A stretch of 64,000 bases of DNA from Shewanella dokdonensis. GTDB taxonomy: Bacteria; Pseudomonadota; Gammaproteobacteria; Enterobacterales; Shewanellaceae. Shown here in pieces: positions 8,398 to 51,940 of this stretch (its first letter is position 1; each line of letters begins with the position of its first letter). Both the position numbers and the translations under genes were made by a program. Where the stretch lies: assembly GCF_018394335.1 (NCBI RefSeq), contig NZ_CP074572.1, forward strand, positions 2,418,001 to 2,482,000. Direction: 5' to 3'. The notes under the pieces are model-generated. The model saw nothing but the letters and a program-made list of their open reading frames with translations, was not told where the DNA came from and ran no database searches.

Positions 8398-9063
8398 ATG
8401 GCCAGTCGTGGTGTTAACAAGGTAATTCTGGTAGGCAATCTGGGGCAGGACCCCGAAGTGCGCTATATGCCAAACGGCAATGCTGTAGCAAATATCACCG
8501 TGGCGACCAGTGATACCTGGAAGGATCAGCAGGGACAGCAACAGGAACGTACCGAGTGGCATCGTGTGGTCATCTTCGGCAAGCTGGCTGAAGTGGCCGG
8601 GGAATATCTGCGTAAAGGTTCGCAAGTATATCTGGAAGGTCGCCTGCAAACCCGTAAGTGGAAGGATCAAGGTGGTCAGGATCGCTACACTACCGAGGTG
8701 GTTATCGATATGCAGGGTAGCATGCAGATGCTGGGTGGTCGTCAGCAGAATCAAGGTGGCGCACCAGCGCAGGGCGGTAATATGGGCGGTGGTTATACTG
8801 CGCCTCAGGGCGGTAATCAGTATGCTGCTCCACAGCAATCCCAGCCACAGTACGCGGCACCACAGCCGTCAGCACCGCAGTACAATGCTCCGCAACAGGC
8901 GGCTCCGGCTTATCAACAGCCACAGCAGAACAGTGGTTATGCGCCTAAACCGCAATCGCAGCAGCGCCCTGCACCACAACCTCAGCAGCAACCACAACAG
9001 CAGCCACAGCAGAATTACACACCAGATCTGGATGATGGCTGGGATGATGATATCCCGTTCTAG
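8398..9063 (+). CDS. ssb: Single-stranded DNA-binding protein SSB
   Basis: A tetrameric OB-fold protein that coats single-stranded DNA in replication, recombination and repair. Residues 1 to ~110 are the OB fold ([42 protein letters not shown]). A long Gly/Gln/Pro-rich linker follows, ending in the acidic tip DDDIPF that recruits partner proteins. It is 221 residues because of the extended Q/P linker, which contains many CAGCC-type codons. GGAG lies 6-7 bases before the ATG, and a strong terminator follows. In many gammaproteobacteria ssb adjoins uvrA; here three genes intervene. Confidence 0.98.
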
Positions 9064-9417: not shown

Positions 9418-9604
9418 TCGTTCTATTCTGAGTCAAAGGAATAGGCTATGCCTATGCAAACTGCGTTTGCTAAAGTCGTGAGCTACCGCGCTCACAATGC
9501 GGCCAAAGGGCGATGCTCGTCCATCGCCCCTTGGAACCCCGAGGACGCCCCACGCCACTGACAACTCTTCGGTTTTATGCTGAAAATGGCTACACTCAGG
9601 ATTC
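9416..9604. repeat. Dispersed repeat type B, copy 1
   Basis: This segment matches 10344-10577. Both begin CATCGTTC(T/C)ATTCTGAG, continue through GGAAT...CTATGCCTAT and CCGCGCTCAC, and share the core CCCCGAGGACGCCCCACG followed by CACTGACAACTCTTC and GCTGAAAATGGCTACACTCA. The end of the unit (GCTGAAAATGG) forms an imperfect inverted pair with CCATTTTTCAGC at the start of the neighbouring A unit, so an RNA or cruciform could fold. Confidence 0.75.
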
Positions 9605-9640
9605 GCGTCCTGCTCAACCTTCGCGCTTCGGCATCCATGC

Positions 9641-9818: not shown

Positions 9819-10151
9819 TCAATGAGTGCTAGTTTTAGACAGCAGATTAAGTACAGCAACACCACATACGATTAATCCGATGCCAAAAAATCCCCATGCG
9901 TCCATTTTCTGTCCATAGACAATCCACGCAATCACAGTGACGCAAGCTACCCCTAAGCCAGCCCAAACCGCATAGGCAATGGCAACGGGTATCGCTTTAA
10001 GGGATAACGATAGGAAATAAAAAGAAATAACGTAGCCAAGGCAAACAACAAAGGAAGGAAGTAGTTTAGTAAAACCATCGGTAGACTTTAATGTTGTCGT
10101 CGCCATTACTTCACCGAGTATCGCAATAGTTAAGAACAGCCAATTTTTCAC
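9819..10151 (-). CDS. Small multidrug resistance (SMR) family efflux protein, EmrE/QacE-like
   Basis: A 110-residue, four-helix inner-membrane protein of the SMR family, which works as a dimer exchanging protons for cationic compounds such as quaternary ammonium dyes. The essential membrane glutamate is visible near residue 14 in [13 protein letters not shown], and the helix-3 signature region [15 protein letters not shown] is present. The start codon is GTG (10149-10151). The gene stands alone between copies of a dispersed repeat, close to an integron-type cassette array, and has an 18-bp palindrome ~140 bp upstream. Its substrate could be a drug, guanidinium or a polyamine; the sequence alone does not settle this. 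Confidence 0.88.
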
Positions 10152-10343: not shown

Positions 10344-10577
10344 TCATCGTTCCATTCTGAGCTGAAGGAATCTATGCCTATACTGCGTTGCTTAAGTCGC
10401 GAGCTTCCGCGCTCACTCTGTGGCCAAAGGGTGATACTCGTCCTTCGAACGACATCCTTGGCTCACGCTCATAAGCTCACTCATCGAAGATGAATATTTG
10501 CCCTTATAACCCCGAGGACGCCCCACGTCACTGACAACTCTTCTGCTTTATGCTGAAAATGGCTACACTCAGGATTC
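10344..10577. repeat. Dispersed repeat type B, copy 2
   Basis: Second copy of the 9416-9604 unit, in the same orientation. It is longer because of an insertion around 10450-10505 that includes GCTCACGCTCATAAGCTCACTCA. The shared core CCCCGAGGACGCCCCACG is at 10510-10527. After 10577 similarity to the other copy fades. Confidence 0.75.
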
Positions 10578-11098
10578 ACGGTTTTCTATCCTTGAAAGCA
10601 TCACCCTTGTCGATCCTGGCCTCACACATACAGATTCAAGACGTTGTCTCGTTCGCCCATGCTCAACCTTCGTCGCTCGGTATTTGCCGGGCAGGATGCC
10701 CAAATGCCGTGGAGCAGCCCAGTTCAGCTACTCCGCATTTCAGTAGCGCGGCTGGGGAGATTGGTGTCGTTTACATCAAATTTAATTCAGGGTTATTTTC
10801 CAATGTTGGGAGCGCACGACATAGTCGCATGTTTGCCCGAAAGTGAGTTAGCAGGGTGTTGGTGGAGCAAGCAACAAACGGACTTTATGCCCCAAAAATT
10901 CTCATCTATATACCGTTTAGTGGAAGTTTCCAGCCATGTGTTAAAACTGGATAGATATACTGTATCGTCCAGATGTCGCAAAATAGGCAGATTTCAGACA
11001 TTTCGACGTATTTTGATGTACGAATCATTGCTCAAAAAATAAAAATATTTTTATTTATCAAAAGAATGTCAGTAATATCTCTTTATGTAAATTCACGA
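10578..11098. other. Gene-poor stretch between repeat region and cassette array
   Basis: Short open frames exist on both strands but none has a ribosome binding site or recognisable family content. The GC-richer part to about 10,900 probably belongs to the repeat family; from about 11,000 the sequence turns strongly AT-rich (poly-A/T around 11,037-11,060), marking the approach to the cassettes. I find no integron integrase gene here on either strand. Confidence 0.5.
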
Positions 11099-11156
11099 AT
11101 TTGGACAAAATGTCGGAATTAAACACGACATTTTGTCGTCTAATACACTGTTAGGC
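11099..11156 (+). other. attC-like right half with hairpin, left boundary of first cassette (weak)
   Basis: A 12-bp perfect inverted repeat GACAAAATGTCG/CGACATTTTGTC (11104-11115, 11126-11137) is followed by TCTAATACACT and then GTTAGGC at 11150-11156, which matches the attC R' core GTTRRRY. I cannot find a matching R'' box upstream, so this could be a degenerate attC or another recombination boundary. The first cassette would begin at 11151. Confidence 0.45.
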
Positions 11157-11179
11157 TTTATCTATAACCAGAGGTCGTA

Positions 11180-11734
11180 ATGGAAATCAGGAAGGGTTCA
11201 AGTAGTGATCTACGCTGGATAGTAAAATTATTAAAAGAAGGCGCTAGAGACGGACATTTTTTACCAACAATGCAAATGCAAGCCGAAGGTTATTTAAACT
11301 CTGTTATTGAGCATGGTGGAGTTCAGATGATCAAACTTCGTAACAGTATTCAAGCTCCAGTATTTGTACCAATGGAGTTGTCTGTAGCTGAAATTGATGG
11401 CTCTCCTTCGTCATTTCTTGTTTGTTGCAAAGAAAATAACGAAGTTGAAGTTCATTTGGCTGGAACAAAAACGCCTTTCAAACAAAAAGGCTGTTTTACT
11501 TATTTAGTTCAAGACACTATTTCTAAAAATCAAAATAGTAAAATTTATGCTCGTTGTTACAGAAAATCATCAATAGCTATCGACGCCTTAAAAAAGCTAA
11601 ATTTTGAAATTGCAGCTGGCGGTGATCCTATTGAATTGGTTCATACTAAAATAAAGCCTAACAAGCAAATCAACGGGACTCGAAAAACTTGGCTTTCCTC
11701 CCTTTGGTCGTCAATTGTAGCCAAGTTTTCTTAG
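11180..11734 (+). CDS. GNAT-like N-acetyltransferase, integron cassette gene
   Basis: 184 residues, AT-rich codons unlike the flanking genes. The N-terminus MEIRKGSSSDLRWIVKLLKEG resembles the first strand and helix of the GNAT fold. FKQKGCFTYLVQDTI sits where the acetyl-CoA loop would be, and SSIAIDALKKLNFEI matches the last helix and strand. These features suggest an acetyltransferase but the family is divergent and the substrate unknown. Its last ~26 codons overlap the cassette's own attC (from 11656), so the C-terminal tail is recombination-site sequence read as protein. AGAGGT precedes the ATG. The gene lies in cassette 11151-11749. Confidence 0.6.
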   Translation: MEIRKGSSSDLRWIVKLLKEGARDGHFLPTMQMQAEGYLNSVIEHGGVQMIKLRNSIQAPVFVPMELSVAEIDGSPSSFLVCCKENNEVEVHLAGTKTPFKQKGCFTYLVQDTISKNQNSKIYARCYRKSSIAIDALKKLNFEIAAGGDPIELVHTKIKPNKQINGTRKTWLSSLWSSIVAKFS

Positions 11735-11757
11735 CCCGTTATTTGGTCGTTATGTAC
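11656..11757 (+). other. attC recombination site of the GNAT cassette
   Basis: R'' is GCCTAAC (11656-11662), within TAAAGCCTAAC, which is the exact complement of the cassette start GTTAGGCTTTA. L'' CAAATCAACGGGACT pairs with L' AGCCCGTTATTTGG, leaving extrahelical bases as expected of attC. The inner stem AAAACTTGGCT/AGCCAAGTTTT is perfect. R' is GTTATGTAC at 11749-11757, with the crossover after G11749. All attC elements are present. Confidence 0.85.
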
Positions 11758-11769
11758 TAGGAGTAAAAA

Positions 11770-12875
11770 GTGACAAACAAGTATTTTTTGGATGAAAGTG
11801 GAAATACAGGCGATTTAGTAAAATTACCTGCTGATATTAACTTTGCTAATCAACCATTTTTTTCGCTATCTTGCGTTAAGGTTGAAAGCTGTGAAGATCT
11901 AAATGAATACATAGAAGCCTTGAAGAAAAAACATAAAGTTCAAGGTGATGAGTTAAAATCAAAAAATTTGTATAAGTCTAAACCAAAATTTATAATTGAT
12001 TTGTTTCATTACATAAAACAGGAAAATCTTCCTTTCTATGTTGAAGTTGTAGATAAAAAATATTGTATTACAACTTCGATGGTTAACCACCAAATTGTCC
12101 CTCCATATTTTCAACAATTTGATAATGAGCAGCAGGCTATTGGTTTTGGAAATGAACTGGCTGACTATTTGGCCGAGCATTTACCTTTAAAGTGTTATGA
12201 TGCATTTTTGAAGCATGTATAGATAAATCTGAATCAAAACTTCTTAACTCAATGAAAGAGTTGAGGAATTATTTCAGAAGTAAGGAGTGTACATTCCAAT
12301 ATAAGAGCAAAGCTCTAAATTGTGTACAAGAAACCATCAAGTTTTATCACAATAATAAATCGCATAAGGCTGATTTAGTTAAAAATTTAATTCCAATACC
12401 AGATATAAGTAAAAGAGGAAGTGATATTCATCTTCTTCCTCATGTGCATTGCTGGTTTAATATTATGGCTAAAGTGAACAAACACCACAAAGGAGATATG
12501 TCAGATGTTGCATTCTTTCATGATCAGCAAGATCATTTTGATGATATTTTAGTATATTGTACCGAACAAATTAGAAATTTTAGTGGTGAAAATCAATTCG
12601 ATCCTACAACTGACTTTAATATAAAGGATGAGATATCTATTCATTTTCCTGACTCTAAAAAAGTATCAGGAGTTCAATTGGCTGATGTATTAGCAGGATT
12701 TATGTCCAGATATGTTATGGATTTCATTTATAATGATGACGTAATTGATGATGTGTATCATGATGTTTTTGCGAAACTGTTAGAGTCTTACAATCCCAAA
12801 GTGAACAATTTTAGTGTTAACTTTGTTCTTCCTATTAGTAGAAGAAATAAATTGTTCAAAAAATTTAAGTTGTAA
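11770..12875 (+). CDS. DUF3800 domain protein, integron cassette gene (one frameshift)
   Basis: The DUF3800 hallmarks are the N-terminal YFLDESGNTG with its acidic residue, and near the C-terminus SGVQLADVLAGF with the conserved Gln-Leu-Ala-Asp. The fold is thought to be RNase H-like; the role is unknown, though family members often occur on mobile DNA. Start is GTG 11770 with AGGAG at 11759-11763. The frame breaks at the T5 run 12205-12209; a sixth T gives DAFFEACIDKSESKLLNSMKE, for about 368 residues in total. The gene is very AT-rich. It fills cassette 11750 to ~12997 together with the attC at 12878. Confidence 0.75.
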
Positions 12876-12877
12876 GC

Positions 12878-12997
12878 GTACATAACAAATTGCTTAAGCC
12901 GACTGCTAACGCGTGGCATTTTCAGTTCCAAAAAGTTTTGTGCTTACAGTGCATTGCTGTAAGTTAGGTATTGCGTTAGCAGCAGCTTAGCAAGGCG
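12878..12997 (+). other. attC site of the DUF3800 cassette, resembling Vibrio VCR repeats
   Basis: R'' GTACATAAC (12878-12886) is the exact complement of the cassette start GTTATGTAC at 11749-11757. L'' TTGCTTAAGC pairs with L' GCTTAGCAA with one extra base. An inner 10-bp stem CTGCTAACGC/GCGTTAGCAG is perfect. The block CTAACGCGTGGCATTTTCAG resembles the VCR sequence of Vibrio as I remember it. The expected final R' core is missing: the site runs into an IS10-like end at 12998, exactly where the crossover triplet should start. Confidence 0.85.
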
Positions 12998-14319
12998 CTG
13001 GGGGATCCCCTCATAATTCAGGCAATGCGGTAACGTGAACTCTCCGGATGTAATAAGTTATTGCCCATCGAATTTCAGAGATTGCAACGGGGTAATTCTG
13101 CCGTCGTTTTCTAACTTCTCTACCTAGTCTTATTAGTGATAGGACCGGACGGTTCCGGATAGTATTAGCCTGAAAGTCGCGCTGCCAATTATGCTTATGC
13201 GCAATTATTCCAATAAGCCTTAGTAGCCATTCGGCAAGCATTGCAATGAGCAACAGGATATCGAACCGTTTAGGGCAACGTGTTCTGCTGTGACGCAATC
13301 CTAGTCCGTATTGTGGGCTTTTAATATCGCGGAAGCTTTCTTCTATTTGCATTCGCTTGGCGTAGAGATTGACGAGTTTCTTTGATGTCAGCGATTCTGC
13401 GGGGATATTCGTTGCGAGTAGCCAGGGCTCTTTACTGCTGTCACGATAATTTTGTTGTGCATTGTGATGACGCCCTGCTTTGGAGGAACGCTGGTCTTTA
13501 CGTCCTTTGGATTTAGCTTTAAACAGGTGTAAACAGGCTTTAATGGGGCTTTTCCGACCCAGATCACCCATACCGAGATAACGTGCTCTGGCGTTGGCAG
13601 AAGGATAAAAGGACTTGTTGCTACGCCATTTGGACTGACCATGTTCACGAAAGCCGACTTCACCACGGACACGTCCAAGCCAGAACCACCCAAGTTTTTC
13701 AACTTCACGAAACCAAGTGTTGCGATAGCCCGCATCGGTGATTATTAGAGGACAACATCGTTCAGGCAATATGGCAGCCAATTCTCGTAGAAAGGGATTG
13801 TGACTGACCGGGGAATTGTATTGAGAAAATGGAAATACCCGCTCATAGAGGATGACTGAACGCCCTTCAAAGCTCACAGAAGCACGCAAGGTTTGATGGC
13901 GCATCTGTTCTCTTACATCAGACCAATCAATAAGAATTATCGGCATCGGATTTGCCCCGCAGAGCAGTTGGGCATGCCACCGATAAATATCGAGTCTTTC
14001 GTTGTGCAACGCGCGATTACCAAGCAATCGGTCGATACGTTTAATGTTGTGCTTAGCCGCAACGGGTCCAGTGATATTTCGGCCCAGTTCGGTAAGAGAA
14101 AGTTGCTGTCCATCAAGCAACGATTGCACAGCCAACATCAGAGAGGAAAGCCGTTTATGATACAAATTAGCGCATTGATTTTTAAGCAAATCATGTAAGA
14201 TAGAGATATCACGCATGGTGTATTGTTCTGGTATGTTTTTGGCGAGATGAATTAGATCAAATTGCACCATGCGTGTCTATATCATTGAATCTGCTTTAAT
14301 TTATGAGGGGATTCGTTAG
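12998..14319 (-). mobile_element. IS4-family insertion sequence, IS10-like
   Basis: About 1322 bp with one transposase gene. The ends are related inverted repeats: left CTGGGGGATCCCCTCATAATT and right (reverse complement) CTAACGAATCCCCTCATAAATT. Both resemble the IS10 outer end containing GATCCCCTCATAA, and the length is close to that of IS10. The 9-bp flanks AGCAAGGCG and ACGCGGGCG are not identical, so there is no clean target duplication; a deletion or recombination next to the element is likely. Confidence 0.85.
13011..14270 (-). CDS. IS4-family (IS10-type) transposase
   Basis: A 419-residue DDE transposase that cuts and pastes the element. Conserved IS10 segments are visible: LTELGRNITG, KHNIKRIDRLLGNRALH, IDWSDVREQ (first catalytic Asp), LIITDAGYRNTWF (second Asp), and YAKRMQIEESFRDIKSPQYG (catalytic Glu in the YREK-type motif). 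Length exceeds Tn10 transposase by a modest margin. The frame is intact, so the element may be active. It is transcribed against the cassette genes. Confidence 0.93.
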   Translation of the reverse strand: MVQFDLIHLAKNIPEQYTMRDISILHDLLKNQCANLYHKRLSSLMLAVQSLLDGQQLSLTELGRNITGPVAAKHNIKRIDRLLGNRALHNERLDIYRWHAQLLCGANPMPIILIDWSDVREQMRHQTLRASVSFEGRSVILYERVFPFSQYNSPVSHNPFLRELAAILPERCCPLIITDAGYRNTWFREVEKLGWFWLGRVRGEVGFREHGQSKWRSNKSFYPSANARARYLGMGDLGRKSPIKACLHLFKAKSKGRKDQRSSKAGRHHNAQQNYRDSSKEPWLLATNIPAESLTSKKLVNLYAKRMQIEESFRDIKSPQYGLGLRHSRTRCPKRFDILLLIAMLAEWLLRLIGIIAHKHNWQRDFQANTIRNRPVLSLIRLGREVRKRRQNYPVAISEIRWAITYYIRRVHVTALPEL

Positions 14320-14336
14320 ACGCGGGCGTTATATGG
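14316..14336 (+). other. Right end of a truncated attC beside the IS
   Basis: TTAGACGCGGGCG followed by GTTATATGG has the look of an attC L'/R' end (compare the VCR end ...TTAGGCGGGCGTTA). The left part of this attC is absent, replaced by the IS10-like element. The next cassette starts at 14329. Confidence 0.55.
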
Positions 14337-14371
14337 TCAGTTACTGATACTCACGAATTGTAAGGACTTTT

Positions 14372-14941
14372 ATGAAAGTTGCATTCATCATTTTCGATCA
14401 GATGACCACATTGGACCTGATCGGAGCCTATGATCCGCTAACCCGTTTGAAATCTATGAACATTCTTCCCGAGTTCGAGTGGGATATTTGTTCATTCACA
14501 AAAGAGGTAACCGACGATAAGGGGCTACGGCTTTTTCCTGACAAGGTTGGGGAAACATTGGTTGGGTATGACCTTATCTTTGTGCCCGGTGGTTTTGGAA
14601 CTCGTTCCCTTCAATTTGACCGTGGTTTTACGGACTGGTTGAAAACGGGCAGTTCTGCGAAATTAAAGGTTTCGGTTTGCACCGGGGCTCTCCTATTGGG
14701 TTCAGCCGGGTTTCTTGCCGGAAAGCGTGCGACAACCCACCCGAATGCGTTTGGTGAGTTGGAGACCTATTGCGACACTGTAGTTGACCAGCGCGTGGTT
14801 GATGAAGGTGATGTGGTGACTGGAAGGGGCGTGTCGTCATCTATTGATTTAGGCCTCTTTCTTGTTGAGCGATTGGCTGGTGTGGACGCCCGAATTAGAA
14901 TTTCGAAACAAATGGACTATCCATATTGGTGTGGGAGTTAA
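14372..14941 (+). CDS. DJ-1/PfpI family protein, integron cassette gene
   Basis: 189 residues of the class I glutamine-amidotransferase-like DJ-1/PfpI superfamily. Seen are the N-terminal MKVAFIIFDQMTTLDLIGAYD, the FVPGGFGTR loop and the nucleophile elbow VSVCTGALLLGSAG with the reactive Cys near residue 110. HPNAFGELE follows, and TGRGVSSSIDLGLFLVE near the end. The family includes isonitrile hydratases, chaperone-like and glyoxalase III enzymes, and the exact activity cannot be read here. GTAAGGAC lies before the ATG. Its base composition is higher in GC than the other two cassette genes. It occupies the cassette beginning at 14329. Confidence 0.85.
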   Translation: MKVAFIIFDQMTTLDLIGAYDPLTRLKSMNILPEFEWDICSFTKEVTDDKGLRLFPDKVGETLVGYDLIFVPGGFGTRSLQFDRGFTDWLKTGSSAKLKVSVCTGALLLGSAGFLAGKRATTHPNAFGELETYCDTVVDQRVVDEGDVVTGRGVSSSIDLGLFLVERLAGVDARIRISKQMDYPYWCGS

Positions 14942-14947
14942 GGAACC

Positions 14948-15025
14948 CCATATAACAAGGTAAATTAACTCGGATGCAAATTCCGCTGCGCTCCATTTGC
15001 ACCGGTTATTTGCAGCATTGATATG
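14948..15025 (+). other. attC site of the DJ-1/PfpI cassette
   Basis: R'' CCATATAAC (14948-14956) is the exact complement of the cassette start GTTATATGG (14328-14336). The inner arms TAAATTAACTCGGATGCAAAT and ATTTGCACCGGTTATTT pair except for extrahelical T bases, with a central TCCGCTGCGCTCC. The right core is degenerate: TTGATATG at 15018-15025 in place of GTTATATG. The array appears to end here. Confidence 0.75.
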
Positions 15026-15354
15026 ATTCCCTCTGTCAATAGGCACATAGCTTTCTTGTCCAGAAGCCTTGTCTGGCCAGAAAGAACCTGAATGAGTGAT
15101 CTTTGGCAAATCAGTTTCGGCGGTTGACCTTGCTCTCTTCATTGCCAATAAAAGTCGCGGGTTTGGTTATCCGCATGACTTGTTTACGCCGTTGGAGCCT
15201 TGCCTCTGTCTAGAGACGCGAGTTGATATCGCTTAACGCTGTCGAGGGTTGCTCGCACCGCTGCCGCCAATCGCTCTCATTCAGGTTGCAACTTTTACCT
15301 GCTTTACCGCTTAGATAGTACGCTGCCAAAGTGGTGTTTGCTGTATCCAGTTGT
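15026..15354. other. Gene-less stretch after the cassette array
   Basis: No open frame with family content or ribosome binding site on either strand, and I see no further attC core. It marks the border between the cassettes and the tetR region. Confidence 0.5.
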
Positions 15355-28158: not shown

Positions 28159-28961
28159 TTAGTCCCAAAGCGGGGCGAGATCTTCTGGGTCGACTTCGCG
28201 GCCATTGCGCTCAAGGGTGGCAATCTGTGCCATCTGCTGGTCAGTAAGTCGCAGTTTTTGTGCTAGCAGGTTACTGGCTAGATTGGCGCGTTTAGTCGAG
28301 GATGGGATAACGGCATATCCCAGTTGCATCGCCCAAGCCAGCGCGATTTGCGCCGGGGTTGCTTGATGTTGACGGGCAATCTCGGCTAATAGCGGATCGG
28401 CTAACACTTTGCCGTAAGCCAGCGTCATGTATGAGGTCACTGGGATCTGCTGTTGCTGCATAAAGGCCGTTAACTGGCGGTTCTGTAAGTAGGGGCTCAG
28501 TTCTATCTGATTGGTCGCAATTGTTTCACGGCCAACCACATCAATCGCCTGTTGTAACAAGGCAATATTGAAGTTGGAAACCCCAATCTGTCGGGTAAGA
28601 CCAAGGTTTTGCGCTTGCTGCAATGCCGTCATGTACTCGGTAAGTGCCACGCCATTTCCGGGGCTGGCCAATGAATGAGCGTCAGATCAACATAATCAGT
28701 CCCCAGTTTGCGCAGGCTTTCTTCAAGACTGGCAATCAACTTGTCGTGGCGGTAGTTTTCCGTCCAGATCTTGGTCGTAAGAAACAGCTGTTGCCGCGGG
28801 ATACCACTGGCAGCAATTGCGGTTCCAATCTCGGCTTCATTACCGTAAATCTGCGCAGTATCAATGGCGCGGTAACCGAGCGCTAAAGCGGTCGATACTG
28901 AATCAATCACTACTTGGTCTTTCAGGCGGAAAGTACCAACACCAAAAAGAGGAATGGTCAT
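28159..28961 (-). CDS. dkgB: DkgB, aldo-keto reductase (2,5-diketo-D-gluconate reductase B type; one frameshift)
   Basis: NADPH-dependent reductase of small aldehydes and ketones such as methylglyoxal. Close to E. coli DkgB throughout: [33 protein letters not shown] with catalytic Asp and Tyr, [48 protein letters not shown] and the ending LAPLWD. The frame breaks at the G4 run 28660-28663 (C4 on the coding strand); a fifth C gives [14 protein letters not shown]. Start 28961 gives MTIPLFGVG, matching the family, rather than 28976. Confidence 0.92.
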
Positions 28962-33945: not shown

Positions 33946-34189
33946 AGATTTCACCCGCTCCAAGTGTGTAGTTAAGCAAATACACTAACATTATATTAGT
34001 GCACATGCGCGTTTTCCTCGTTACCTTGATTACTCCTGTTCTGACGGTAGCTAAAGTTTGCTACAGCAAGGCTTGAAAGGCGGTGTCCATCACAGCAAAG
34101 CCTTTGAGCGATATAAATCCAGACGTTCAAGCCAGACTTGAATTCTCCACTTGTTATTAAATATTCTTTCTTTATTATTATAAAAACGA

Positions 34190-43031: not shown

Positions 43032-46000
43032 ATGAACAGACGACAGTTTTTCAAACTGTGTGCAGCCGGGGCGGCAACTTCAGCGATTTCTGCGCTGGGG
43101 TTGATGTCTGACAAGGCCTATGCCGCAGTGCGAGAGTTCAAGCTGCTCAGAGCCAAAGAAACCCGCAATAATTGCCCTTATTGCTCAGTGGGTTGTGGCC
43201 TGTTGATGTACAGTCAAAACAGCGGCGGCAAAAACTCAGAACATGCAATTTTCCATATCGAAGGTGATTCAGACCATCCAGTAAGTCGTGGCGCATTATG
43301 CCCGAAAGGTGCTGGTCTGGTGGACTATGTTAACAGTCCTCACCGTCTGCAATATCCAGAGTATCGTGCTGCCGGTAGCAATAAATGGCAGCGTATCAGT
43401 TGGGATGAAGCGTTCAAACGCATTGCCCGCCTGATGAAGCAGGATCGCGATGCCAACCTGTTGCAGAAAGATGCTATGGGTGTCACCGTCAACCGTTGGC
43501 TCACTACCGGGATGATGACTTCGTCCGGTATGTCGAACGAAAGCGGTATTGCGACCCAGAAATTCGCCCGTGCTCTTGGCATGGTCGCGATCGATACTAT
43601 TGCGCGTAACTGACACTCCCCAACGGTAGCAAGTCTTGCTCCAACATTTGGGCGTGGTGCCATGACCAACCACTGGATCGATATCAAGAATTCCAATGTG
43701 ATCGTGATTATGGGCGGTAATGCTGCGGAAGCACATCCTGTCGGTTTCGGCTGGGTGACAGAAGCGATGCAACACAATAATGCCAAATTAATCGTGGTCG
43801 ATCCCCGTTTTAACCGTAGTGCCGCATTGGCCGATCACTATGCACCCATACGTTCCGGTACGGACATCGCGTTCCTGCTGGGGGTTATCCGTTATCTGAT
43901 CGACACCAAACAGGTGAACTACGACTACGTGAAAGCGTATACCAACGCCAGTTATATCATCCGCGAAGACTTTGATTTCCATGATGGTCTGTTCAGCGGC
44001 TTTGATGAAGAAAAAGGCGCTTACAACACCGAATCCTGGTATTACGAACTGGATGAACAGGGCTACGCGAAAGTCGATGACACCCTGCAACATCCTCGTT
44101 GCGTCTGGAACCTGCTGAAACAGCATGTGGCACGTTATGACTTCAAGACCGTCAGTAACGTTACTGGAACGCCGATAGATGATTACCAGACGGTGTGCGA
44201 AATGATCGGCAGCACTCACACCAAAGATCGGGTGGCCACCTTTATGTATGCGCTGGGCTGGACCCATCACAGCAAAGGTGCACAGAACATCCGTACTATG
44301 GCGATGGTGCAACTGTTGCTGGGCAACATCGGTCAGCTGGGTGGCGGCGTGAATGCGCTGCGTGGTCACGCTAACGTGCAGGGCGCTACTGACATGGGGC
44401 TGCTGGCACAAAGCCTGCCGGGTTATCTGAAACTGCCAAGTGATAAAGAACCGACACTGGCAGCGCATTTAACCGCACATACGCCTAAACCTTTACGTCC
44501 GGGCCAGACCAACTACTGGCAAAACTATCCGAAGTTCTTCGTGTCACTGCTGAAATCATTCTGGGGCGATGCCGCCACTGCTGAGAACGATTTTGGCTAC
44601 GACTGGTTGCCAAAATGGGATCAGATGTATGACTTCGGTAAGCACATCGACATGATGTACCGCGGCCAGGTTAACGGGCTGCTGGTGCAAGGGGTTAACG
44701 CCATTAACTCCATGCCGAACCGCAATAAGACGCTGAAGGCTCTGAGCCAACTGAAGTATCTGGTGGTGCTGGATAACCTGTCATCTGAGACTGCGACCTT
44801 CTGGCAAAATGAACCTGGCTTCAACGAAGTGAACACCGCGGAGATCCAGACCGAAGTGTTCCGTCTGCCAACTACCTGTTTTGCTGAAGAAGAAGGTTCC
44901 ATCGTTAACTCCGGTCGCTGGATGCAGTGGCACTGGAAAGGCGCTAATGCGCCGGGTGAAGCGATGGCCGACTCCGAAATCGTCTCAGGCATCATGTTGG
45001 AGCTGAAAAAGCTCTATCGTGACGAAGCTGGCGTGCTGCCAGAACCTGTGGCAGCGGTGAACTGGCACTATGCCGTTGAGCATAATCCAAGTTCAGAAGA
45101 ACTCACCAAAGAGCTGAACGGTTACGATGTTGCTAGCCGCCGTCAGGTCAGTGGTTTTGGTGAACTGAAAGCCGATGGCAGTACCGCATGTGGTTGCTGG
45201 CTGTATGCTGGTTCCTGGACCGAAGAAGGTAATAACATGGCGCGCCGTGATAACCATGACCCATCAGGGAAAGGGATCACGCCGGGATGGACCTTCGCAT
45301 GGCCGATGAATCGCCGGGTACTCTACAACCGCGCTTCTTGTGATATCAATGGTAAACCGTGGGATCCAGAACGTACCATCGTCGAATGGAAAGATGGTAA
45401 GTGGCACGGTATCGACGTGGGTGACTTCAACATGAAGCTGACCCCACAAGAAACCGCCAGTCCATTCATTATGCAGCCTGAAGGTGTGGGTCGTCTGTTC
45501 GCCCTGAAGCTGCTGAAAGAAGGACCGTTCCCGGAACACTACGAACCGGTTGAGTCTCCCATTGGTACTAACCCGCTGCATCCTAAGGTGGTGCACAGCC
45601 CAGTGTTACGCTGGTTTGAAGGGGTTAAAGAGACTATCGGCACCAAAGAGGAGTTCCCGTACGCCTGTACCACCTACTCGCTGACCGAACACTTTAACTT
45701 CTGGACCACACACTGCCGACTGGCTGCGATTTCCATGCCGGAAACTTTTGTGGAAATGAATGAAGTGCTGGCCGCCGAGAAGGGCATCAAGAATGGCGAC
45801 TGGGTGAAGGTTAGCTCCAAACGGGGTCATATCATCACCAAAGCGCTGGTGACCAAACGGTTGCGGCCACTGCAAGTAAACGGCCAGGTAGTGCACACTT
45901 TGGGTATCCCGCGTCATGGCAGTCACAACGCACTGATCAAGAAGGCTTACACCTGTAACGTACTGACCACCGAAATGGGGGATGCCAACACCGGCGTACC

Positions 46001-51845: not shown

Positions 51846-51940
51846 TGGCGGAAGAACATAGGAGTCGAACCTACCCGGGACTGCTGGCAGCCCCACCCGG
51901 ATTTGAAGTCCGGACGCCTCACCGGAGACGACGTTCTTCC
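51846..51940 (-). tRNA. selC: tRNA-Sec (UCA anticodon)
   Basis: 95 nucleotides including encoded CCA (51846-51848). The 5' end GGAAGAACGTCGTCTCCGGT, the extended acceptor arm, long variable arm and T-arm with GGTTCGACTCC closely match E. coli tRNA-Sec. The anticodon is TCA (complement of TGA at 51904-51906) in the loop CTTCAAA. It is transcribed towards the selB 3' end. Gene order selA-selB-selC (opposite strand) is compact and lies between fdhE and fdhD. Confidence 0.96.

Follow-up and report, generated by a model that had tools for sequence, protein, structure and literature searches.

An array of integron cassettes in Shewanella dokdonensis, located in a stretch of 64,000 nucleotides (here called the window; positions 2418001-2482000 of a 4.13-Mb single contig), begins with an integration site, attI, of its own, and in the usual place of the integrase gene, intI, it carries a conserved module of about 130 bp, which we call the left module (LM). 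Normally, an integron is described as one attI beside one intI, and arrays that have no integrase are usually read as products of decay or of off-target insertion. The integrase-less arrays considered here have retained the insertion site, and a module common to them takes the place of the integrase. Judging from sequence comparisons, the window array is probably an integrase-less integron platform, made up of LM, its own attI and three cassettes, that was filled in trans by an integrase encoded elsewhere. LM, attI core and attC stand together in the window, the combination by which we propose to define an LM-attI unit, and the array is a member of a dispersed family of such units. The attC sites were scored with a covariance model of our own (A1, not that of IntegronFinder), built from 18 attC of the genus, with the first site of the window and two sites from the intI locus of this genome among its training rows. 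The features of the array are as follows.

10833..10963, plus strand: LM, in the usual place of intI; about 130 bp, with a sharp left edge TTGCCC.
10966..11156, plus strand: attI, of the same type as the attI beside the broken intI of this genome; core palindromes CGACANNNTGTCG, then CTAATACACT-GTTA.
11151..11749, plus strand: cassette 1, with an open reading frame at 11180-11734 (184 aa).
11656..11755, plus strand: attC of cassette 1; A1 81.7 bits, E 6e-18 (a training row of A1).
11750..12999, plus strand: cassette 2, with a DUF3800 gene in two pieces (11770-12222 and 12252-12875).
12880..12999, plus strand: attC of cassette 2, with an exact R'' box; interrupted by an IS4-family element.
14329..15019, plus strand: cassette 3, with a DJ-1/PfpI-family gene at 14372-14941 (PF01965, E 6.7e-24).
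14950..15023, plus strand: attC of cassette 3; A1 27.0 bits, E 4.4e-4 (held out); 3' core degenerate, ATT for GTT.

A preliminary description, made from the sequence alone, had proposed three cassettes, each followed by an R'' box complementary to its own start, and direct sequence comparison bears this out, since all three R''/R' pairs are exact: GTTAGGCTTTA (11150-11160) with TAAAGCCTAAC (11652-11662), GTTATGTAC (11749-11757) with GTACATAAC (12878-12886), and GTTATATGG (14328-14336) with CCATATAAC (14948-14956). The same description had predicted attC hits at 11656, 12878 and 14948. A1 returned the first (11656-11755, a training row) and the third (14950-15023, held out), whereas the second, also held out, was matched only weakly (12880-12981, 14.7 bits, E 0.58), its 3' part being interrupted by the IS4-family element at about 13000-14314; this second site is 78% identical over 92 nt to positions 8449-8540 of a stretch retrieved for comparison, L027. 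That these are integron cassettes is thus borne out independently of training by one attC (14950-15023). In the first attC (11656-11755) the outer 25-nt ends are paired by 18 bp, and the sole remaining match of A1 in the window up to E 10 is the reverse strand of this same site (E 0.07). As for the contents of the cassettes, the protein of cassette 1 had no match in Pfam, NCBIfam or PADLOC at the cut-offs used, no homologue search or structure prediction having been made, and the first piece of the DUF3800 gene had a weak PADLOC match (PDC-M04A, E 1.1e-6). A consensus scan for the cassette promoter Pc gave one match, which lay on the opposite strand and was not above shuffles.

Of the traits of a complete integron, the array has an attI, recognised by sequence identity, and attC cassettes, and it has no adjacent intI. 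Because intI is absent it is formally a CALIN (cluster of attC sites lacking an integron-integrase): it has the at least two attC sites without a nearby integrase that define one, namely 11656-11755 (a training row) and 14950-15023 (held out). Absence of attI is no formal criterion of a CALIN, and the window array has one; the retained attI, together with a conserved module in the place of intI, is the new part.

As the preliminary description had stated, there is no intI in the window, and the genome-wide search that it called for did find one elsewhere: at 143217-144144, the only gene of this genome that is IntI-like beyond the level of Xer recombinases, in three pieces in different frames. 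It lies 2.28 Mb from the window array, and none adjoins the array. The proposal that the array might be the far end of a larger integron is contradicted by its own attI head (10966-11156) and LM, and the alternative offered, a cluster lacking an integrase, is right as far as no intI adjoins it and is incomplete in that the insertion platform, attI with LM, is retained. A gene order fixed in the core genome of relatives, which would have argued against cassettes, was not seen: the attI region of the window was matched in none of 35 other same-genus genomes at E 1e-3, a set in which S. fodinae, which has this attI type, is not known to be included.

The window attI is 91% identical over 208 nt to the attI of the distant intI locus (L009 11171-11378), and the identity is spread unevenly: the last 110 alignment columns are 108/109 identical, the preceding 90 columns 74/90. 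The opposite pattern is seen when the intI-linked attI of this genome is compared with that of S. fodinae (last part 105/110, preceding part 86/90). Since the orphan core is nearly identical to the resident attI, yet the part that precedes it has diverged, the reverse of what holds for the intI-linked pair, the core of the window attI would seem to have been homogenised with the resident intI-linked attI. In the genome collection, from which records of very near relatives may have been excluded, an exact 20-mer of the attI core occurred only in two contigs of S. fodinae KCTC 22506, the first of which is about 87% identical to, and collinear with, the integron locus of this genome and has its intI in a single frame. 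On L035, a stretch of S. fodinae, an attI of a second type (463-536) lies near a contig end with no cassette recognised alongside, and a LexA-box-like sequence is found about 50-60 bp from it on the cassette side; in another genome an IntI 71.6% identical to that of S. fodinae, with one stop in frame, adjoins an attI of this second type.

A related attI core stands at the head of two further arrays of this genome (2962966-2963037, plus; 2803382-2803454, minus), and a whole-genome A1 scan, in which 150 of 973 candidates were scored, placed attC downstream of both. Altogether, five arrays of this genome have an attI head and no integrase, and LM precedes the attI in three of the five. Upstream of one attI-headed array, on L066 (contig positions 2794000-2808000), we also noted an IS110-family transposase gene (377 aa), about 0.45 kb from the attI.

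LM was searched for with a model (R3, from alignment A3) built from seven copies of two other genomes, so that the window copy, found at 10833-10963 with 59.2 bits (E 5.5e-17), was held out. Three more matches occur in this genome, all on the minus strand: those at 818466-818599 and 2398464-2398599 are followed by an attI-type core and attC, and that at 28789-28921 by neither. Across the genus, scanned with stricter filters and 25 candidates scored per genome, R3 matched in at least 39 of 129 genomes, and across the order in 7 of 295 sampled genomes, six of the seven belonging to the same genus. The left edge is sharp in the 30 copies listed, and beyond it lies unrelated sequence or sequence shared within a subgroup only. 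Downstream of 17 of 20 fetched LM copies there was an attI core within 3 mismatches, compared with none of 123 control segments, and in 15 of these 20 units there was an attC on the LM strand at E <= 0.1 (one of the 15, L116, scored on the other strand as well, E 0.0017). The core of the window is of the TGTCG type, that of 17 of the 20 other fetched units of the TGCGC type. In a separate comparison of 20 other units with intI-linked attI, 18 were 82-93% identical over 125-309 nt to one of these, the remaining two, L077 and L087, giving pieces of 31-40 nt only.

Several other identities for LM were considered. It was absent from all 30 intI loci fetched, which came from 30 of the 77 genomes with an intI over the cut-off and included about 1.5 kb to either side, and at the intI locus of this genome and in an 8-kb stretch around that of S. 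fodinae R3 found no LM either, so that LM as the far flank of intI was rejected. LM as a structured RNA was likewise rejected, the consensus fold energy being near zero, the window copy having a z of +2.7 and no Rfam match being found. Nor was it supported that LM and attI travel as a cassette following an attC, as the DNA preceding attI or flanking LM on the left, sampled in 35 stretches (18 about 4 kb long and 17 about 1 kb long), yielded no attC; three attC matches from the upstream scan sit in two further stretches that actually run downstream. Finally, two ideas about recombinases were set aside. In G069 and G113 the first cassette seemed to carry a recombinase gene, but the reading frames look like part of an IS91-like element (by reading); and a serine recombinase left of LM on a Vibrio furnissii plasmid had no relative beside another LM among the loci examined.

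To estimate how widely such insertion sites are dispersed we scanned for the pattern CGCATGCGCACTA-N7-GTTR with one mismatch allowed, a core observed beside many intI of the genus and contained in the printed Shewanella-type attI (PMC9892861); other types of attI fall outside these counts, and cores adjacent to intI fall within them. The pattern matched 330 times, in 86 of the 129 genomes and at most 13 times in any one, whereas its reversed form, run as a control, matched once. Of the 129 genomes, 77 had an intI over the cut-off, and 40 of the other 52 had at least one core. In two single-contig genomes, G090 and G099, no intI match passed the cut-off (best E 2.8e-22 and 2.9e-22, respectively), yet they contain 11 and 9 cores; 19 of these 20 were fetched, and all 19 were followed by an attC on the same strand (best of each E <= 7.2e-4), matches on the opposite strand being five in number (E 0.087-0.62). 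When both genomes were scanned for attC at E <= 0.01, with 150 of 980 and 150 of 964 candidates scored, 26 of the 34 sites returned for G090 and 20 of the 36 returned for G099 lay downstream of a core at a distance of up to 6 kb, and none lay upstream; in a rotation test of the attC set none of 2000 rotations reached the observed number (highest 19 and 15). In six arrays of these genomes (L074, L075, L081, L083, L084 and L089) the last attC is followed by a repeat with a AAATCGAAGAGACG motif, the inverted complement of a motif left of several LMs; these may be element ends or ordinary genome repeats. Exact cores were also found in 8 stretches of viral contigs, 7 of the 8 with a same-strand attC downstream.

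The same two genomes allow cassette contents to be compared at an orthologous unit. L082 and L091 have upstream flanks with pieces that are 93 and 94% identical, and over 1114 bp their distal arrays agree at 98.7%; the cassettes at the head of the array are different, and identity starts exactly at an attC core (GGCG|TTAGAG). A second pair, L074 and L083 (97.4% identical over 1683 bp), has its switch at an attC core as well. IntI produces turnover of this kind, at the attI end and with breaks at attC cores. As neither G090 nor G099 shows an IntI over the cut-off now, the switch at L082/L091 would reflect the action of an IntI that was active earlier or was supplied from elsewhere.

With an LM-attI unit as BLAST query, 25 plasmid records were returned, of which five were opened. 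LM was clear on four (E 5.7e-15 to 7e-7) and weak on the fifth, from S. xiamenensis (E 0.0045). Units with LM thus also occur on plasmids of other families. A plasmid of Moellerella wisconsensis has LM, attI, dfrA1 and attC, and no intI match in its record passed the cut-off; an Escherichia coli IncC plasmid has LM, attI, fosG and attC, and at a distance of about 95 kb a partial match to intI that did pass the cut-off. In Shewanella sp. LC6 the plasmid carries LM, a core with 1 mismatch and attC, and intI elsewhere in the record; the V. furnissii plasmid carries LM and a core with 3 mismatches, and its record gave no attC match and no IntI match. Directly upstream of LM-attI-fosG on the IncC plasmid there are four genes (L162 382-5680; two annotated integrases and two hypothetical genes), which we take to resemble strand-biased circularizing elements; an element of this kind is a possible vehicle for such units.

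These observations suggest how the platforms might work. An IntI encoded elsewhere would recombine orphan attI sites in trans; specificity would be kept as the orphan cores are converted to the sequence of the resident intI-linked attI; and the units would spread by plasmids, prophages and homologous recombination. The window platform itself is probably idle at present, since the only intI of the genome reads in three frames, unless these frames are sequencing errors. Such errors in the assembly are possible, because neighbouring genes of the intI locus, a LacI-type regulator and a transporter of the major facilitator superfamily (L009 14862-17289, by reading), are likewise split over frames. 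It is in our estimate evenly balanced whether Shewanella chromosomes and plasmids carry a family of "satellite integrons", dispersed LM-attI platforms that would borrow any IntI present, maintain an attI that matches it and take up cassettes at as many as a dozen addresses at once, so that much of the local CALIN content would be a multi-port integron served in trans rather than wreckage. If trans action holds, a single integrase supplies many addresses, an incoming integrase can still load genomes that have no intI of their own, and loadable platforms, some of them on plasmids with dfrA1 or fosG, escape surveys based on intI; the nature of CALINs then becomes a question open to a simple assay.

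Several observations weigh against reading the array as a platform filled in trans. With the intI of this genome broken, no active partner is evident here, and the LM-attI of the window itself had no plasmid match by BLAST. The association of the parts is incomplete: two of the five integrase-less arrays of this genome have attI but no LM match, 3 of the 20 fetched LM copies have no core within 3 mismatches, and 5 of the 20 have no same-strand attC at E 0.1 (two of these five run into the end of a contig). LM lacks a conserved RNA structure, and prophage M16-3, the only printed relative (see below), has no LM up to E 10 in two stretches (L165, L167). In G090 and G099, 8 of 34 and 16 of 36 attC have no listed attI nearby. 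Nor do all pairs of units from these genomes show turnover: L077 and L087 have no cassette change over 2.6 kb, L075 and L084 share little before the last attC and mainly sequence beyond it, the orthology of the flanks of L074 and L083 is less clear, and four of the 8 pairs, which were paired by guess and are not known orthologs, share the head region only.

One may also consider explanations that involve no action in trans. Ordinary decay, in which each array would have started as a complete integron, or as a partial duplicate of such an integron, and would have lost its intI separately, we hold to be unlikely, though less so than the two explanations that follow. It would account for the identity of the window attI with the intI-linked one and for the broken intI of this genome, and an IntI present in the ancestors of G090 and G099 and lost later could explain the cassette turnover too. 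However, independent losses should leave varied edges or pieces of intI, whereas LM stands with the same left edge in the place of intI in at least 39 of the 129 genomes and at none of the 30 intI loci; moreover, up to 13 core sites per genome would require many losses, and the leading cassettes turned over at an orthologous unit that is without intI. Off-target insertion, by which IntI would have placed cassettes in non-classical chromosomal sites (attG) that merely resemble attI, is highly improbable: attG insertion is known in print (PMC12901181, PMC12444791), but it would not bring an attI region and LM along, while the window shares 108 of 109 nt with the intI-linked attI and 18 of 20 other units compared share extended identity with one, as given above. 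Equally remote is a rearrangement that displaced a distal piece of the single chromosomal integron into the window, for although the arrays located at 144, 2429 and 2963 kb have a common IS110-type right end, each of the three has its own attI head, and the common end belongs to an insertion sequence and is found against attC-type cores in other genomes too.

Two insertion sequences have altered the window array.

13000..14314, minus strand: IS4-family insertion sequence in the attC of cassette 2; transposase at 13011-14270 (419 aa; NF033591, 388.5 bits).
15020..15314, no strand assigned: solo right end of an IS110/IS1111-attC-like element in the last attC core; 97.7% identical to L009 12907-13206.

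No target duplication was recognised by eye at the ends of the IS4-family element. The array end given in the preliminary description, 15025, lies on the solo right end, which starts at about 15020. The same right end adjoins a GCGTT core wherever else it was examined, in 10 places of which two are in this genome (GGCGTT in nine, GCGTT in one); pieces of an IS110-type transposase adjoin it in L030 and L031, none does in the window, and by reading of the sequence the copy in L009 continues into the end of a truncated transposase. About 0.7 kb left of LM, between two 80-bp direct repeats (9528-9607 and 10501-10580), there is an efflux gene of the small multidrug resistance family on the minus strand (9819-10151) near the integron-associated Qac group (NF033137, 174.9 bits with a cut-off of 188). 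Elsewhere in the window a TGCGC-type attI core with one mismatch, CGCATGTGCACTAATATAATGTTA (33986-34009, minus), precedes the apparent start of a VOC/glyoxalase-like gene (by reading of the sequence); A1 found no attC near it, and it is possibly a relic platform. The window further contains a SECIS_3 element (43608-43666) and a selenocysteine tRNA (51846-51940).

IS1111-attC insertion sequences are IS110-type elements inserted at attC cores, and the window array resembles them in having an IS110-type end in such a core, and differs from them in that this is a solo right end without a transposase; they are mentioned in PMC9229058. As for CALINs, their listed origins are off-target insertion, loss of intI and rearrangement (PMC8618304), CALINs together with loss of IntI activity are described in Xanthomonas (PMC12444791), and partial attI in cassettes are treated in PMC12901181. 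No published report of a dispersed attI family or of LM was found among the matches listed, in a search that left subscription journals mostly outside. Compared with the complete integron of S. fodinae (L034), whose integrase belongs to group A in PMC9229058, the window array has the same attI type and attC cassettes, whereas S. fodinae has intI in one frame and no LM in its 8-kb stretch. In Shewanella, many attC far from intI, as CALIN or SALIN (single attC site lacking an integron-integrase), are reported from genomes with and without intI (PMC9229058); they were found by IntegronFinder, version 2 of which does not detect attI outside class 1 (PMC9024848), and attI at CALINs lay outside the analysis in the portion of PMC9229058 at hand. 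This published set very likely includes LM-attI units. The closest parallel is the Shewanella prophage M16-3, in which one CALIN with its own attI shares the prophage with a complete integron (PMC9892861); we located that attI at 600-622 of L167. There as here, an array without intI is headed by a Shewanella-type attI, the one printed for M16-3 containing the scanned core, whereas M16-3 is a single case, described in the portion of PMC9892861 at hand with neither dispersal nor intI-free genomes, and the window array is one member of a family dispersed over chromosomes and plasmids.

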